Positions 30,469 through 38,561 of a stretch of DNA of 47,572 bases are shown here, piece after piece. The notes under the pieces are model-generated. The model was not told the DNA's origin. It saw nothing but the letters and a program-made list of their open reading frames with translations, and searched no databases. Each line of letters begins with the position of its first letter. The stretch's first letter is position 1. Origin of the DNA: Acidobacteriota bacterium (lineage in GTDB: Bacteria; Acidobacteriota; Thermoanaerobaculia; Thermoanaerobaculales; Sulfomarinibacteraceae); the NCBI GenBank assembly GCA_024641545.1, contig JAHECW010000018.1, positions 1 through 47,572 on the forward strand, written 5' to 3'. Position numbers and translations under genes: made by a program.

Positions 30469-30957
30469 ATGGGCTCCCGCGAAAGTCACGGTTCGATTTC
30501 AACCGCCATCCTCACCGCGATCCGCGGCAAAAGATCCCGGTTCATCGTTTGCGGGGTTGCCGTCGCCCTCCTGTGCTGGCTGCCCGCTCGGCCGCTGATT
30601 GCCGCGGTGTTCACGGTGGACAGTACGATCGACGCGACGGACGCCGTCCCCGGCGACGGCCTGTGCGACAACGGGACCCGCGACATCGGGCGCTGCAGCC
30701 TGCGCGAAGCGATCCTCGCCTCCAACGCCACGAGCACCGTCATCGACACCATCGCCTTCGACATCGCGGGCGCTGGTCCGCACCTCATCTTCGACAATCA
30801 GTCGCTCGCGATCGATCTCGGCACCGACGGCGTCACCGCCAACGACCCCGGCGACGGCGACGCCGGCGCCAACGGCGCCGATCCGGCGCCTGTCACGTTT
30901 TTTCAACCGGCCCTTCTTCGACCCACTTCACCTCTCTCCATCCCTGAACCGAGTTGA
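30469..30957 (+). pseudogene. Truncated CSLREAI-domain secreted protein gene
   Basis: The 162-residue frame starts with a good ribosome site (AAAAGGAG, 6 nt before ATG) and a long signal peptide (RFIVCGVAVALLCWLPARPL). It then has the CSLREA domain: FTVDSTIDATDAVPGDGLCD and RCSLREAILASNA. Full-length proteins of this type run hundreds to thousands of residues with parallel beta-helix repeats. Here DTIAFDIAGAGPH jumps directly to IDLGTDGVTANDPGDGDAGANG, a segment normally found far downstream, after the repeats. The frame then runs antisense over the end of the pabB-pabC gene. An internal deletion plus C-terminal loss is inferred. The remnant could still make a short secreted peptide. Confidence 0.65.
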
Positions 30958-32707
30958 TGAGACAGAGTGCCTCGGCGCGACCGAGATCCTCGACGCGGAT
31001 GATGCGCTCGACGATCTCGCCTCGTTCGAGCAGTTCCGCTCTGAAGGTCCCGGCGAGGAGGCCGCACTCCACCGACGGGGTCACGAGCTTGCCGTCGATC
31101 TTCACAACCAGATTGGCGATGGTGCTCTCGGTGGCCTCGCCCCCCTCATTCCAGAGCAGGACATCGTCGCATTCGGGGCGCGACGCTCGCGCTCGGTCAT
31201 AGACTGTTCGGTTGGTCGTCTTGAAGTGGAGAAAGGGCTCCTCCCGCCTGACGGCCGATCCGGCAAGACCGAGTCGTACCGGCGCCGCTGCCGACTCCGG
31301 TTCGAGACGGGACGCCTCGATCCGATGGGAGCCACCGGCGTCAACCAGGAGACGTACGCGATGTCGTTTGCGTCCGAAGCGTTCCGAACGGGACTCGAGA
31401 TCCGATCGAATCCGGGTCAGGTCGATCTCCCGGTCGAAGTACTCGGCGGCGTCCGCGAGCCGATCGAGGTGTCGATCGAGCAGGGAGAACCCGCCGGAGG
31501 GTTCCCAGAGCATGGTCTCGAGCAGCTCGAACTCGGGCACGGGCTCGGAGAGGATCTTCGCTTTGGCGGCGCACTCGCGGTACTCATCCTCGAACTCGGA
31601 GTCCCACACGACGCCGCTGCCGACGCCGTACTCGACCCGCCCCGCGTCCCGGTCCACCACCGCGGTGCGGATGGCCACCGAGAACCTCGCCCGGCGACCG
31701 GGTCCGACCACGCCGATGGCCCCGGTGTAAACTCCCCGCGGATCGGCTTCGAGCTCGTTGATGATCTCCATCGTTCGCACCTTGGGCGCGCCGGTCACGG
31801 AGGCGGGCGGAAAGAGCGCGGCGATGACCTCGGAGACCGGCACCGTCGTCCTTGCTTCCACGGTCGAGGTCAGCTGAAAAACCGTCGGGTGGCGTTCGAC
31901 GTCGAAGGTCCTCGTCACCGCCACGGATCCCACGCGGGCGACACGCCCGAGGTCGTTGCGCACCATATCGGTGATCATGGCGTTCTCGGCCCGGTTCTTG
32001 GGCGACTGCACGAGCCATGAACCGCGTTCCCGGTCCGAACGAAGATCAAAACCCCGGTCGATCGTGCCCTTCATCGGCCGCGAGACAACACGATCCCCGT
32101 CGAGCTGGAAAAACAACTCGGGCGACGCCGAGCAGATCACCCGGTCTTTGATGTCGAGGTAGGCGGCGAAGGGGGTCGGCTGTGATCGAACCAGGTCGAG
32201 GAAGAGAACCCTGGGGTCCCCGTCGAAGGAACCCCGGAGCCGAAAGGTGTGGTTGACCTGGTAGGTTTCGCCCCTCGCGATCAGGTCGCGAACACTGCCG
32301 ATGGAACGGTGGTACTCCTCCTCGCTCAGCGATGCCGACAATTCACCGACGGCGCAGGAGCCGAGATTCCCGAAACGAGGCTGGGGTCCCCGGGTCACTT
32401 CCTCGAAGAGCCCGAACTGAAGCAGCGGCATGCCGTCGATCGGTCGATGAACGCGGAAGGCGCCGTCAAACGCCGGCGCGGCTTCGAAGGTCAAAAAACC
32501 CACGGCGAAGAGACCCCGTCGCCCCGTCGTCGCTTCGTCGATCCGGGCCAAAACCTCCGCCACACCGCCGGCTGTGAAGGTCGAAACCACCTCGACCGGG
32601 CGATGGAAGTGCAGCCACCCACCGGATTCAGGATCACGGATCAGCGCGAAGTCGACCACGATCGATGCATCATACGGCGTTCTCCGGGTTCCCGACGTTT
32701 CAGCCAA
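30893..32707 (-). CDS. pabB: Aminodeoxychorismate synthase component I fused to aminodeoxychorismate lyase (PabB-PabC)
   Basis: A 604-residue bifunctional enzyme of folate synthesis, converting chorismate plus ammonia to 4-amino-4-deoxychorismate and then p-aminobenzoate. The PabB half (1 to about 375) shows GETYQVNHTFRL, SASPELFF, RPMKGTIDRG, NRAENAMITDMVRNDLGRV, PPASVTGAPKVRTMEII and YTGAIGVVGPG. The PabC half (about 380-604) is a PLP fold-type IV lyase with LLETMLWEPSGGFSLLDRHLDRL, the Lys in LHFKTTNRTVYDRA, and ESTIANLVVKIDGKLVTP. The best 5' start at 32707 is TTG; GTG at 32659 is an alternative and neither has a strong ribosome site. Its 3' end overlaps the CSLREAI remnant by 65 bp. The PabA glutaminase is not in the window. 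Confidence 0.93.
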   Translation of the reverse strand: MAETSGTRRTPYDASIVVDFALIRDPESGGWLHFHRPVEVVSTFTAGGVAEVLARIDEATTGRRGLFAVGFLTFEAAPAFDGAFRVHRPIDGMPLLQFGLFEEVTRGPQPRFGNLGSCAVGELSASLSEEEYHRSIGSVRDLIARGETYQVNHTFRLRGSFDGDPRVLFLDLVRSQPTPFAAYLDIKDRVICSASPELFFQLDGDRVVSRPMKGTIDRGFDLRSDRERGSWLVQSPKNRAENAMITDMVRNDLGRVARVGSVAVTRTFDVERHPTVFQLTSTVEARTTVPVSEVIAALFPPASVTGAPKVRTMEIINELEADPRGVYTGAIGVVGPGRRARFSVAIRTAVVDRDAGRVEYGVGSGVVWDSEFEDEYRECAAKAKILSEPVPEFELLETMLWEPSGGFSLLDRHLDRLADAAEYFDREIDLTRIRSDLESRSERFGRKRHRVRLLVDAGGSHRIEASRLEPESAAAPVRLGLAGSAVRREEPFLHFKTTNRTVYDRARASRPECDDVLLWNEGGEATESTIANLVVKIDGKLVTPSVECGLLAGTFRAELLERGEIVERIIRVEDLGRAEALCLINSVQGWREVKWVEEGPVEKT

Positions 32708-32759: not shown

Positions 32760-34553
32760 GTGTTTCGCATCCGCAGGGTCTACGACAACATTCTCTCGCC
32801 GGATCGGGTCGCCATCGAGCAGGTCCAGGCGATGCTCAGCGAACGCATTCCCGGGCTCAACGAGAAGGATGTCGCCGGGCTCCCGGGGAAACTCCGACAC
32901 CCCGTCCGACACGGATTCCGGGCCTTCCTCTACGTCGTGGAAAACCAGCGCCGGACGGTCAAGGCCTTCGCCCTCGTCTACCACGAGGCCGAGATCGGCT
33001 TTGTCTGGCTCGAGTACCTCGCCAGTGGTTCGGGTTCGGGCGGCCGCGGCATCGGCGGCACGCTCTACGAGCGGGTCCGCAGGGACGCCCTCGAGCTCGG
33101 CGCGTGGGGTGTTCTCTTCGAGTGCCTCCCCGACGACCCGGCGCTCTGCAGGGACCCCTCCCGTCGGCGCCAGAACGCCGCCAGGCTCCGGTTCTACGAG
33201 GGCTTCGGCGCGCGCCCGGTCATCGGCACCGAGTACGAGACACCGCTCTCCGCCGACGACGATGAGCCGCCCTACCTGGTGGTCGACACCCTCGGTTCGG
33301 AGCGGCCGCCCGCGAGCAAGAATGTGCGCGCCGCGGCCCGGGCGATACTCGACCGCAAGTACGGCGACCTCTGTCCGCCGGAGTATGTCGAAAAGGTGAC
33401 GTCCTCGTTCAAGGACGACCCGGTCCGCCTCCGGCCCTTCCGCTACGTCGACCAGCCGGCCCGCGCCGCGGTCGCCGAAGCCGAACAACCACCACCCGAC
33501 CAGAGAATCGCGCTCGTGGTCAACGACCTCCACCTCATCCACCACGTTCGCCAGCGCGGCTATGTCGAGTCGCCGGTGCGGATCGCGACCATCCGCCGCG
33601 AGATCGACCCGACCCGCATCTTCGAAGAGATCCCTCCCCGCGAGTTCCCGGATCGCCACATCCTCTCGGTCCACGATCGAGGCTACGTCCGCTATCTCGA
33701 ACGGGTCTGCGCCCGGGTCGGCGACGGGCGCGCGGTCTATCCGTACGTCTTTCCCATCCGCAACAACGCCCGCCCGCCCAAAGAGCTCGAGATGCGAGCC
33801 GGCTACTACTGCATCGACACCTTCACTCCGCTCGACGGGAACGCATTCCGAGCCGCCCGACGCGCGGTCGATTGCGCCCTGACCGCCGCCCACGCCGTGC
33901 TCGACGGACGCCGGCTCGCCTACGCGCTGGTCCGCCCGCCGGGCCACCACGCCGAGAGCCGCGCGTTCGGCGGGTTCTGCTATTTCAACAACACCGCCAT
34001 CGCCGCCCAAGAGCTTGCCCGCCACGCCCGGGTCGCGATCCTCGACCTCGACTATCACCACGGCAACGGCCAGCAGGAGATCTTCTGGGAGCGCGGCGAC
34101 GTGCTGACGCTTTCGATCCACGGCCACCCCAACTTCGCCTACCCCTACTTCAGCGGCTTTGCCGACGAACGGGGCGCCTCCGCCGGGCTCGGCGCCAACC
34201 GCAACTACCCGCTCGAGGAGAAGGTCGAAGGCACCCGTTATCGCGAGGTCCTGACCCGGGCGCTACGCCGGGTCGAGAAGCACGGCACCGAGATTCTGGT
34301 GGTCGCCCTCGGCCTCGACACCGGACGCAAGGACCCAACCGGAACCTGGGACCTCACAGCCGCCGATTTCGCCGAGAACGGGCGAATGGTGAGCGCTCTC
34401 AAACTGCCGACACTGGTGATCCAGGAGGGCGGTTACCGGGTTCGCAGCCTCGGCGTGAACGCCCGGAGTTTCTTCACCGGGATGTGGCAGGAAGCGTTCG
34501 GTCCCGGCTCCGGACAGGCCGGGTGGAAAAAAAATTTCCCGTTACAGTCATGA
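32760..34553 (+). CDS. GNAT acetyltransferase-histone deacetylase family (APAH-like) fusion
   Basis: A 597-residue two-domain protein. Residues 1 to about 190 resemble a GNAT N-acetyltransferase, with FALVYHEAEIGFVWLEYLAS and the acetyl-CoA loop GGRGIGGTLYERVRR, then RLRFYEGFGARPV. Residues about 245-590 form a class II histone deacetylase/acetylpolyamine amidohydrolase domain. RPPGHHAES carries His396-His397; DLDYHHGNGQ carries zinc ligands Asp431 and His433; GLDTGRKDP carries the third ligand Asp520; EGGY carries the oxyanion Tyr559. Both active sites look intact. The start is GTG at 32760 with GGAGG 4 nt upstream; an overlapping ATG two bases earlier is in another frame. It lies upstream of, and in line with, the lysine 2,3-aminomutase group. 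An acetyl-amine substrate is inferred. Confidence 0.88.
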   Translation: MFRIRRVYDNILSPDRVAIEQVQAMLSERIPGLNEKDVAGLPGKLRHPVRHGFRAFLYVVENQRRTVKAFALVYHEAEIGFVWLEYLASGSGSGGRGIGGTLYERVRRDALELGAWGVLFECLPDDPALCRDPSRRRQNAARLRFYEGFGARPVIGTEYETPLSADDDEPPYLVVDTLGSERPPASKNVRAAARAILDRKYGDLCPPEYVEKVTSSFKDDPVRLRPFRYVDQPARAAVAEAEQPPPDQRIALVVNDLHLIHHVRQRGYVESPVRIATIRREIDPTRIFEEIPPREFPDRHILSVHDRGYVRYLERVCARVGDGRAVYPYVFPIRNNARPPKELEMRAGYYCIDTFTPLDGNAFRAARRAVDCALTAAHAVLDGRRLAYALVRPPGHHAESRAFGGFCYFNNTAIAAQELARHARVAILDLDYHHGNGQQEIFWERGDVLTLSIHGHPNFAYPYFSGFADERGASAGLGANRNYPLEEKVEGTRYREVLTRALRRVEKHGTEILVVALGLDTGRKDPTGTWDLTAADFAENGRMVSALKLPTLVIQEGGYRVRSLGVNARSFFTGMWQEAFGPGSGQAGWKKNFPLQS

Positions 34554-34913
34554 ACCCCTTGACACACCGTCAAAAAGACGTACTTTCAAGGCGTGAACGA
34601 GGAAATCGCATCCGACGAGCCTCCGAGTAGGCAGGAGCCCATCACCCGACGTCAGTCTCGACTCCGGGAGAAGGGTTCCGTTCCACGTCGGCGATCGCCC
34701 TCACCGCGCTGCTCCACTTTCTCCGAGCGCGCCACAACCGGGCTGCATCCGCGGCTCCCGGGAATTCACTCCCAGCAGTAATCCACCATGCTCACGCTCC
34801 CTTCGGGGTCTTTTTCGCGCGCGGCGTCGTCGCTGGCGGACCAACCTGGTGATCAGGTTGATGTCTCGTTGATTCTTCATCTCAATTCAGGAAAGACAAG
34901 GGAAATTTAAACC
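34554..34913. other. Long leader region before the aminomutase gene
   Basis: This 360-nt gap begins with a promoter-like pair (listed separately) and otherwise shows no gene. A GTG-initiated 62-residue frame at 34593 has random composition. A small hairpin with a T run (CCCTTCGGGG then TCTTTTT, near 34799-34815) could act as an attenuator. I compared the leader by eye with lysine riboswitch features and did not find them. The ribosome site of the next gene is AAGGGA near 34898. Confidence 0.45.
34559..34586 (+). promoter_or_regulatory. Predicted promoter of the aminomutase-ligase operon
   Basis: TTGACA (34559-34564) and TACTTT (34581-34586) are spaced by 16 nt. They lie just after the GNAT-HDAC stop and about 330 nt before the aminomutase start. 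The surrounding sequence is unusually A-rich. It implies a separate promoter and a long 5' leader. Confidence 0.5.
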
Positions 34914-36077
<1,164 letters not shown>

Positions 36078-36082
36078 ATGCA

Positions 36083-37159
36083 ATGAATCTCTCGATCGCA
36101 CTGTGTTACGACAGCAAAGAGGAATACCTGGCCGCCGGCCACAGCAAGCTCGAGGTGGCGGAGTTCGACGATGAAGGCGTGATCGCCGGGCTCGAGGGCG
36201 CTCTCACCCGTCTCGGCAACCGGGTCGAACGCGTCGGCCGCGGCCGGTCGCTGGCCGCCAGGCTGGTTGCCGGCCAACGCTGGGACCTCGTCTTCAACTT
36301 CACCGAGGGTCTTCGCGGCCGCGCCCGCGAAGCTCAGGTTCCCGCTTTGTGCGAGCTCTTTGATCAGCCGTACACCTTCTCCGACCCGGTGACCTGCGGC
36401 CTCACCCTCGACAAGGCTATCGCCAAACGCATCGTGCGCGACGCCGGCCTGCCCACTCCCGGGTTCATGGTCGTCCGCACGCCGGCCGACGCCGAGGTCA
36501 TCCGCATCGACGGCCCCATGTTCGTCAAGCCGCTCGCGGAGGGCAGCTCGAAGGGCGTCGGTGCGTACTCGATCGTCAACCGGTCCCGCGACCTGGTCAA
36601 AACCTGCGCCAAGCTGCTCCCGGATTTCCCGGCCGGCCTGCTGGTCGAGGAGCTCCTGCCCGGCCGCGAGGTCACCGTCGGCATCACCGGCAACGGCGAC
36701 CGCGCGCGCGTCGTCGGCGTCATGGAGGTGGTGTGGACCAAACGCTCCGAGGTCGAGGCCTACACCCAGCTCAACAAGGACGAATACCTGGACCGGATGG
36801 AGTACCGTCTGATCAAGGGCGAACCGCTGGCCGATGAGGCGACCGAGCTGGCGCTGGCGGTTGCCGCGGCGCTGGAGTGCAGGGACGCCAGCCGCGTCGA
36901 CCTTCGCTGCGACCTCTCGGGGCGGCTTCAGTTCCTCGAGGTCAACCCGCTGCCCGGACTCCACCCGGTGCGCTCCGATCTGCCGATCATGGCCCGCATG
37001 GCGGGTCTCGCTTACGACGATCTCCTCGGCGAGATCGTTCTCGCAGCCAAAGAAAGGTACGACCTCGATACATGCGCGACATCCTGGTTGCCCACAATGC
37101 AGTCTCGTCCGACGACGACCCATCGACGCAAGACGTTCTCGCCCAGGTCGATTTCGTAA
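36083..37159 (+). CDS. D-Ala-D-Ala ligase-like ATP-grasp enzyme 1
   Basis: A 358-residue ATP-grasp ligase forming an amide or peptide bond via an acyl phosphate. The N-terminal domain begins MNLSIALCYDSKEE, with WDLVFNFTEGLRG. The ATP-binding parts are FVKPLAEGSSKGVGAYSI (Gly-Ser loop) and LVEELLPGREVTVGITG. The metal and catalytic segment reads RVDLRCDLSGRLQFLEVNPLPGLHPVRSDLPIM, very close to Ddl (EVNxxPGxxxxSxxP). A Ddl role in cell wall synthesis is less likely because the gene sits between an aminomutase and a second ATP-grasp. It begins 5 nt after the kamA stop with GGGGTGA upstream; an in-frame GTG at 36074 is an alternative. The 3' end overlaps the next gene by 88 nt. Confidence 0.88.
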   Translation: MNLSIALCYDSKEEYLAAGHSKLEVAEFDDEGVIAGLEGALTRLGNRVERVGRGRSLAARLVAGQRWDLVFNFTEGLRGRAREAQVPALCELFDQPYTFSDPVTCGLTLDKAIAKRIVRDAGLPTPGFMVVRTPADAEVIRIDGPMFVKPLAEGSSKGVGAYSIVNRSRDLVKTCAKLLPDFPAGLLVEELLPGREVTVGITGNGDRARVVGVMEVVWTKRSEVEAYTQLNKDEYLDRMEYRLIKGEPLADEATELALAVAAALECRDASRVDLRCDLSGRLQFLEVNPLPGLHPVRSDLPIMARMAGLAYDDLLGEIVLAAKERYDLDTCATSWLPTMQSRPTTTHRRKTFSPRSIS

Positions 37160-38052
37160 CCGGCGCGCTCGACGCTCTGAAAGCCCCGTATCGCGTCTTG
37201 GCGGTCGGCGCAGCAGGAGTCGAGGTCGCGTCGATCAACGGCGCCGACACCGTCGTCAACCTCGTCGAGTCGCCGCCGGGCCTGCCCGGCTTCCAGTGCG
37301 AGGCGGCGGAGGCTTTCGAACGCCTCGGTCTCAGAATCACCGGCTCGCCCGCCGCAGTCATCCGCGCCACCACGGACAAGGAGGCGACCCGACGAACGCT
37401 CGCCGGGCACGGGGTGGCGGTGGCCCCCGGCGGGCTGATCGACCCTGACAACCCCGCGGCACTCGACACCGTGCCGCCGCCGTGGATCCTCAAGCCCGCG
37501 CTCGAGGACGCCTCCCTCGGTCTCGACGACGGCGCGGTGACCTCCGATCGGGCGCAGGCCGCTGCCCGCGCCCGCGATCTCCGGCGTCGCTTCGGCGGCC
37601 AGGACGTGCTCGTCGAGCACCTCCTGCCGGGCCGCGAATTCAACATCGCGATTCTCGCCGGCGCCTCCGGCCCCGAGGTCCTGCCGCCGGCGGAGATGAC
37701 GTTTGTCGATTTCCCTCCCGATCGTCCGCGGATCCTCGGCTGGGAGGCGAAGTGGGACCAGTCCTCGTTCGCCTACCGGAACACGGTGCGCGTCTTTCTC
37801 GACGGCGCCGAACCCGAGCTCGGCGAGGACCTCGCACGCATCGCCCGGCGGGCATGGGCGGCCTGCGGGCTCGCCGGCTACGGCCGGGTCGACATCCGCC
37901 TCGACGACGACGGAACGCCGTGCGTTCTCGAGGTCAACGCCAACCCCTGCATCTCACCCGACGCCGGCTTCGCCGCCGCGACTGCCGCCGCCGGCATCGA
38001 ACCGGCCGAGGTCGTGCGCCGGATTCTCACCGCCGCTGGATGGAGCCAATGA
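37072..38052 (+). CDS. D-Ala-D-Ala ligase-like ATP-grasp enzyme 2
   Basis: A 326-residue second ATP-grasp, divergent from the first. The N-terminal region is MRDILVAHNAV...GADTVVNLVESPPGLPGFQCEAAEAFERLGLRITGSP. The ATP-binding Lys lies in WILKPALEDASLGLDD, followed by VEHLLPGREFNIAIL. The metal-binding end is YGRVDIRLDDDGTPCVLEVNANPCISPDAG. The C-terminal loop lacks the PGxxxxSxxP of Ddl and of enzyme 1, suggesting another acceptor amine. The first 88 nt overlap the upstream ligase in a different frame; only a distant AAAGG (14 nt) precedes the ATG, so translation is probably coupled. It ends in an ATGA overlap with the GNAT gene. Confidence 0.87.
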   Translation: MRDILVAHNAVSSDDDPSTQDVLAQVDFVTGALDALKAPYRVLAVGAAGVEVASINGADTVVNLVESPPGLPGFQCEAAEAFERLGLRITGSPAAVIRATTDKEATRRTLAGHGVAVAPGGLIDPDNPAALDTVPPPWILKPALEDASLGLDDGAVTSDRAQAAARARDLRRRFGGQDVLVEHLLPGREFNIAILAGASGPEVLPPAEMTFVDFPPDRPRILGWEAKWDQSSFAYRNTVRVFLDGAEPELGEDLARIARRAWAACGLAGYGRVDIRLDDDGTPCVLEVNANPCISPDAGFAAATAAAGIEPAEVVRRILTAAGWSQ

Positions 38053-38561
38053 CAACCGCCACCGACCGCAACGCTGTTTCCGTTCGCCGCGAACTCCGCG
38101 CCACCGACCGCTCCTCGATCGAGCGACTGCTCACCGCGACCGGCTTTTTCAACCCTGAAGAACTCGCCGTCGCGATGGAGCTGGTCGATGACCGCCTCAT
38201 CGAAGGCCAGGAAAGCCACTATCGCTTTCTCGTCGCCGAGCACCGCAGCCGGGTCGCGGGCTACGCCTGCTGGGGGCCGATCCTCGGCACCGCCGAGTCC
38301 GCCGACCTCTACTGGATCGCCGTCGATCCCGCGTGCCAGGGTCTCGGCGTCGGGCGCGCCCTGCTCGCCGAAGCGGAGCGGTGGCTGGCCGAGTCCGGTC
38401 GGCTGCGGGTCTGGGTCGAGACCGCCGGTCGGCCGCAGTACCAGCCCACCCGCGCCTTCTACCTCGGCTGCGGCTACCGCATCGCGGCCGAGCTCGAGAG
38501 CTTCTACGGCCCAGGTGACGACAAGGTCGTTTTTCTCAAGGTGCTCGAAGAGAACGACTGA
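38049..38561 (+). CDS. GNAT-family N-acetyltransferase
   Basis: A 170-residue acetyl-CoA-dependent transferase. Motif A reads DLYWIAVDPACQGLGVGRALLAEAERWL, with the QGLGVG pyrophosphate loop; the C-terminal part shows TRAFYLGCGYR, the usual Y-x-x-x-G-F-like close. It is shorter than the beta-lysine acetyltransferase AblB (about 270 residues) and not clearly that family. Its ATG overlaps the stop of ATP-grasp 2 (ATGA), with GGAG 3 nt upstream. As the last gene of the kamA operon, it may acetylate beta-lysine or the ligation product. The deacetylase domain encoded upstream could reverse this. Confidence 0.88.
   Translation: MTTATDRNAVSVRRELRATDRSSIERLLTATGFFNPEELAVAMELVDDRLIEGQESHYRFLVAEHRSRVAGYACWGPILGTAESADLYWIAVDPACQGLGVGRALLAEAERWLAESGRLRVWVETAGRPQYQPTRAFYLGCGYRIAAELESFYGPGDDKVVFLKVLEEND

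Follow-up and report, generated by a model that had tools for sequence, protein, structure and literature searches.

A conserved operon encoding a lysine 2,3-aminomutase-like enzyme, two Ddl-like ligases and acetyltransferases, with a putative role in making an N-acetylated beta-lysine peptide

Several small biosynthetic systems provide a frame for the gene group described here. In the pathway for N-acetylglutaminylglutamine amide (NAGGN), a non-ribosomal peptide, Ngg performs both N-acetylation and peptide-bond formation, the amidation is carried out by AsnO, and the operon is accompanied by a peptidase gene (PMC8070244). N-epsilon-acetyl-beta-lysine is a compatible solute in methanogens, and beta-amino acids are suited to this use since they do not become part of proteins (PMC1224877). 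The Pbo cluster of Pseudomonas syringae has a KamA-like enzyme beside an L-amino-acid ligase of the ATP-grasp type (PMC8473136). In the present study, we analyzed a stretch of 47,572 nucleotides (nt) from an Acidobacteriota bacterium of the family Sulfomarinibacteraceae (assembly GCA_024641545.1, contig JAHECW010000018.1, positions 1 to 47,572), hereafter called the window, which carries genes for a lysine 2,3-aminomutase-like enzyme (KamA), two ATP-grasp ligases related to D-Ala–D-Ala ligase (Ddl) and a GNAT N-acetyltransferase, preceded by a gene for a GNAT–HDAC fusion protein. These genes almost certainly constitute one pathway, which probably operates inside the cell to make a small N-acetylated beta-lysine peptide. 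The preliminary description of this DNA knew of no such pathway, and we also found no published account of one in a search limited to open-licence full texts.

By analogy, NAGGN biosynthesis represents the nearest known logic, since it is likewise encoded by a small operon kept across distant bacteria (PMC8070244). However, NAGGN biosynthesis does not use KamA, whereas the present operon has no AsnO and has two Ddl-like ligases; the precursor would be lysine instead of glutamine, and an HDAC-type amidohydrolase is found here as opposed to the peptidase of NAGGN. None of the five proteins matched an NCBIfam model for an AsnO-type amidotransferase or an Ngg-type protein, and no amidotransferase was present among the recurrent neighbors. 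The AblA–AblB system shares the use of a KamA-type lysine 2,3-aminomutase followed by acetylation, but differs in that the operon KamA does not reach the AblA cutoff, is missing the C-terminal region and belongs to another clade, the operon GNAT is not AblB, and two ligases are added. The Pbo cluster is larger and toxin-associated, with a ketosynthase, a carrier protein, a dioxygenase and transporters (PMC8473136), and has neither an HDAC nor tandem Ddl-like ligases.

All five genes lie on the forward (+) strand of the window, in the order GNAT–HDAC fusion (32760-34553, 597 amino acids), kamA (34914-36077, 387 amino acids), ligase 1 (36083-37159, 358 amino acids), ligase 2 (37072-38052, 326 amino acids) and GNAT (38049-38561, 170 amino acids). 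The fusion gene starts with a GTG codon that aligns with the Met start of its relatives, and kamA begins 360 nt past its end; the four core genes then follow with a 5-nt gap between kamA and ligase 1, an 88-nt overlap between the two ligases and a 4-nt overlap between ligase 2 and GNAT. The 88-nt overlap codes for the tail of ligase 1, about its last 30 residues, which is of low model confidence and lies outside the conserved family domain. Searches of Pfam and NCBIfam confirmed the HDAC domain (Hist_deacetyl, E 1.8e-71), KamA, two Ddl-type ATP-grasps (Dala_Dala_lig_C in both) and the GNAT (Acetyltransf_7/1). The window gave zero matches to Rfam, and promoter and terminator scans of it gave scores no better than shuffles. 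The preliminary description had reported five same-strand genes, the last four tightly packed or overlapping, and had named their families, with the KamA acting on lysine and two Ddl-like ligases joining amino acids. This layout and these assignments were borne out, the GNAT part of the fusion through the Pfam matches of its relatives and its predicted topology; the conserved residues presented below support lysine as the substrate and point to intact ligases.

The linkage of these genes extends far beyond the window. A ligase 2 profile run against named genomes returned at least 555 confirmed relatives, the best 80 loci of which were mapped with family hidden Markov models; since these loci were selected through ligase 2, the figures describe the neighborhood of that gene and not a random sample of genomes, and most of the genomes compared are metagenome-assembled genomes (MAGs). 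These best 80 loci span Acidobacteriota, Thermodesulfobacteriota, Myxococcota, Bacteroidota, Nitrospirota, Nitrospinota, Planctomycetota, Lentisphaerota, Pseudomonadota, Krumholzibacteriota, KSB1, Tectomicrobia and others, and the operon is distributed over at least 10 bacterial phyla. Of the loci testable for each gene, 61 of 63 had kamA upstream of ligase 2 and 65 of 71 had ligase 1 there. Among the 50 loci in which both flanks were testable, the gene orders (K, kamA; 1 and 2, the ligases; F, the fusion; A, GNAT) were K-1-2-A in 34, K-1-2-F-A in 10, K-1-2-F in 2, K-1-2 in 2, F-K-1-2-A in 1 and K-2-A in 1. The fusion protein of both K-1-2-F loci carries the GNAT as its C-terminal domain, which brings the loci with all four core genes to 47 of the 50.

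A similar picture was obtained closer to the window. Among 60 relatives searched, strong ligase 1 matches were found in 16 of 17 sister-family genomes and, within the window's family, in 4 of the 19 other genomes; where the contig permitted, ligase 1 adjoined kamA, ligase 2 and GNAT in the conserved order. Ligase 1 was found in 45 of 247 Acidobacteriota genomes (about 18% of those sampled). Sixteen Acidobacteriota loci, chosen from mostly weaker ligase 1 matches for a check of gene content, contained all four core genes in 12 cases and three in the other 4, several being ordered L1-L2-GNAT-kamA. The pairwise distances of the four core proteins were correlated (r 0.40-0.68, exceeding all 999 permutations); these correlations also reflect species relatedness and are, thus, evidence of co-inheritance, not of function. 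The arrangement is well beyond chance because it recurs in at least 10 phyla.

Regarding the GNAT–HDAC fusion, it was detected in 8 of the 247 Acidobacteriota genomes, all 8 being among the 45 with ligase 1 (P about 7e-7), even though the two genes were on different contigs in 5 of the 8. Its position varies: it is upstream of kamA in the window's genus and elsewhere usually between ligase 2 and GNAT. Among 32 named genomes with the operon but no fusion inside it, a full fusion was present elsewhere in 5 and a split version in 1. Moreover, continuous open reading frames (ORFs) joined ligase 2 to GNAT in 12 loci, in several phyla, and joined GNAT, HDAC and GNAT in 6 loci. The possibility that the fusion gene is an unrelated neighbor, raised by the finding that within the window's order it adjoins the operon only in the window's genus, was overturned by the wider search. 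The conserved order, the gene fusions and the confinement of the fusion gene to operon-bearing genomes indicate that the five genes form one system, as the preliminary description had proposed, and the outcome that it had named as refuting, genes that are rarely adjacent, was tested for and did not occur. Its inclusion of the fusion protein requires qualification, in that the fusion occurs only with the operon but is an optional fifth part, which most genomes of the window's order lack.

One alternative is that the operon product is a specialized metabolite, a beta-lysine peptide antibiotic or signal, that is exported or self-protected and for which the GNAT and HDAC activities would provide self-resistance and activation. 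The Pbo natural-product cluster does pair a KamA-like protein with an L-amino-acid ligase (PMC8473136), and acetylation and deacetylation are able to protect a producer. On the other hand, when all ORFs were clustered and 96 flanking genes were scanned with Pfam, no sixth gene recurred beyond what relatedness gives, and the operon had no conserved transporter, regulator or carrier protein and no conserved tailoring enzyme; its flanking genes lie in either orientation. The operon was not found in plasmid searches, which returned only other KamA or HDAC contexts and no match to ligase 1. Together with the spread over at least 10 phyla and the correlated distances of the core genes, these results make such a product improbable.

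The CxxxCxxC motif of radical S-adenosylmethionine enzymes, with its three cluster cysteines, and the equivalents of Arg134, Asp293, Asp330 and Lys337 (the pyridoxal phosphate lysine), numbered as in clostridial lysine 2,3-aminomutase, are retained in the window KamA (P0002) and in virtually every one of the approximately 71 operon KamAs compared. In the clostridial enzyme, Asp293 and Asp330 are ligands of the lysine side chain; the conservation of their equivalents makes lysine the likely substrate of the operon KamA. Most operon KamAs stop 32-50 residues past the pyridoxal phosphate motif and do not extend into the longer C-terminal region seen in AblA. The operon KamAs form a clade separate from AblA (support 99/98), with the exceptions of one long-branch Nitrospirota operon KamA outside the clade and one long-branch plasmid KamA inside it. 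The window KamA scored 459 bits against the AblA model TIGR03820 (cutoff 525), 257 bits against the EpmB model TIGR03821 (cutoff 369) and 398 bits against the glutamate 2,3-aminomutase model TIGR04368 (cutoff 650), and it has Asp at both lysine-binding positions; the scores and residues ruled out a glutamate or arginine aminomutase. An identity as AblA or EpmB was ruled out by these sub-cutoff scores and by the true paralogues in the window genome, namely, an ablA–ablB pair (G000:C262; 575 and 290 bits, above the cutoffs) and an EpmB (G000:C19; 433 bits against the cutoff of 369). The window genome also has a true Ddl. Since N-epsilon-acetyl-beta-lysine, EF-P beta-lysylation and cell-wall D-Ala-D-Ala each have their own genes, the operon has another role. 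The KamA of the operon L050 / L097 in a same-family genome (G009) clusters with those of other phyla instead of those of other Thermoanaerobaculales operons, which suggests horizontal transfer. Another small KamA–ligase cluster was observed on the Thioflavicoccus mobilis plasmid pTHIMO01 (L155:4959-10440), in which a KamA-family gene adjoins a Ddl-like ATP-grasp and 2,3-diaminopropionate/diaminobutyrate genes.

Both ligases resemble Ddl in fold and in all of the ATP, Mg and transition-state residues: in D-Ala–D-Ala ligase numbering, K97, K144, E180, E187, K215, R255, D257, E270 and N272 are invariant in 36 of 36 members of each family. The predicted model of ligase 1 (predicted local distance difference test score 91.9) has P. 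aeruginosa DdlB as its top structural match (Z 32.5). In contrast, the D-Ala recognition pocket (E15, Y216, S281 and L282) is replaced, with E15 to L/S, Y216 to E/D and L282 to D in ligase 1, and Y216 to W, S281 to A and L282 to G in ligase 2, and the scores against the Ddl model TIGR01205 (105 and 66 bits, respectively) are far below its cutoff of 245.65. The residues, thus, support ligases in which the catalytic apparatus is intact and the substrate pocket altered, and the acidic residues at two positions of the ligase 1 pocket would suit a cationic substrate. An assignment as Ddl itself was ruled out by the low scores, the replaced pocket and the separate true Ddl. The small GNAT (P0005) did not match the AblB model TIGR03827, and matched PDB 2r7h, a Desulfovibrio G20 protein labelled as a putative D-alanine N-acetyltransferase (E 1.1e-36), to the family of which it belongs.

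These properties bear on a second alternative, in which the ligases attach beta-lysine or lysine to a macromolecule, either a protein, as in the beta-lysylation of EF-P, or a peptidoglycan precursor. KamA relatives supply EF-P modification and Ddl-like enzymes act on cell-wall peptides; however, the genome has its own EpmB and Ddl, the operon contains no EpmA-like or Mur-like gene, and the fusion of GNAT to ligase 2 indicates a small acetylated product, so that a macromolecular target is unlikely.

In the fusion protein of the window, the N-terminal GNAT domain was missed by Pfam, whereas Acetyltransf models matched 17-18 of 20 relatives, and the order of strands and helices in its predicted structure is that of the GNAT topology. 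A fold search with the fusion returned HDAC chains throughout; the GNAT domain is, therefore, supported by Pfam and the predicted topology rather than by a structural match. The nearest solved relatives of the HDAC domain are acetylpolyamine amidohydrolases (APAHs; best structural match Z 33), with which it shares the fold and the catalytic residues, the zinc and catalytic positions H396, H397, D431, H433, D520 and Y559 being invariant among 20 relatives. The fusion differs from APAHs in its added N-terminal GNAT domain. Of the polyamine-recognition glutamates of the M. ramosa enzyme, Glu106 and Glu117, the Glu117 position is an invariant Phe in the fusion family and the Glu106 position is variable, but ApaH 9gkz also lacks Glu117. 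In a Bacteroidales genome (G301, L163:4431-6153), GNAT and HDAC are encoded by two adjacent genes with an 8-nt overlap, at a site separate from the core operon. Another kind of pairing between a ligase and an amidohydrolase was noted in the same-family genome G009 (L053:7053-10212), in which a Ddl-like ATP-grasp fused to a family S58 peptidase adjoins a stand-alone HDAC/APAH-like gene. Upstream of the fusion gene, the window carries a divergent gene (30893-32707, - strand) that by eye resembles a PabB–PabC type fusion of aminodeoxychorismate synthase and lyase, and a similar gene occupies this position in a sister genome (G002).

The fusion protein may also be regarded as a regulator that reversibly acetylates the enzymes of the operon and not a metabolite. 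The AMP-forming acetyl-CoA synthetase of Bacillus is controlled by an acetyltransferase and a deacetylase (PMC11532494), and two opposing activities in a single chain fit a switch; nevertheless, the HDAC domain is nearest to small-molecule APAHs and is fused to the operon GNAT in six loci, and we consider this function to be as doubtful as a macromolecular target. A variant abl system for N-epsilon-acetyl-beta-lysine with incidental ligases is very improbable because, although the abl recipe is KamA plus an acetyltransferase (PMC1224877), both ligases are constant in the operon and catalytically intact, a true ablA–ablB pair is present in the same genome, and the operon KamA, with its score short of the AblA cutoff, branches in a different clade.

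For the small-peptide pathway that we favor, the sequences directly show the gene set, its conserved linkage, the gene fusions and the catalytic residues, and from this point we infer the substrates, partner amino acids, order of steps, product and physiological role. KamA would convert L-lysine to beta-lysine, and the two Ddl-like ligases would join beta-lysine to one or two further amino acids, the carboxylate being activated as an acyl phosphate. The small GNAT would then acetylate an amine of the product, and the optional GNAT–HDAC protein may both acetylate and deacetylate a pathway amine, which would protect it while synthesis proceeds and later deprotect it, or would serve turnover. The final peptide would stay in the cytoplasm, and would most likely be a compatible solute or stress metabolite, following a logic similar to that of NAGGN. 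Several points weigh against this proposal. The substrates of the ligases are not deducible from sequence. In a host that already has ablA–ablB, another osmolyte derived from lysine would be redundant to some extent, no salt-responsive element was identified, and the habitat range is not confined to saline sites, operon-bearing MAGs being from freshwater, groundwater and soil as well as marine sources. The freshwater and soil occurrence favors a broader role in stress or a different function, and we regard a role as an osmolyte as tentative. It is at least as tentative to suppose that N-acetylated beta-lysine peptides, made by this operon of four or five genes in at least 10 phyla, are a new class of small metabolite in widespread use as a compatible solute or stress protectant, and that the acetylase–deacetylase fusion is dedicated to controlling their pool.

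The operon, thus, brings together known types of enzymes in an apparently uncharacterized combination in approximately 18% of the sampled Acidobacteriota genomes, and its carriers include many environmentally important bacteria, sulfate reducers among them. Its members are at present probably annotated as cell-wall ligases, lysine aminomutases or histone deacetylases, and naming the pathway would correct many of these annotations. The proposed pathway also predicts a new metabolite that is directly searchable by mass spectrometry. A single-chain GNAT–HDAC protein tied to a metabolite pathway instead of to proteins would represent a new role for enzymes of the HDAC fold.

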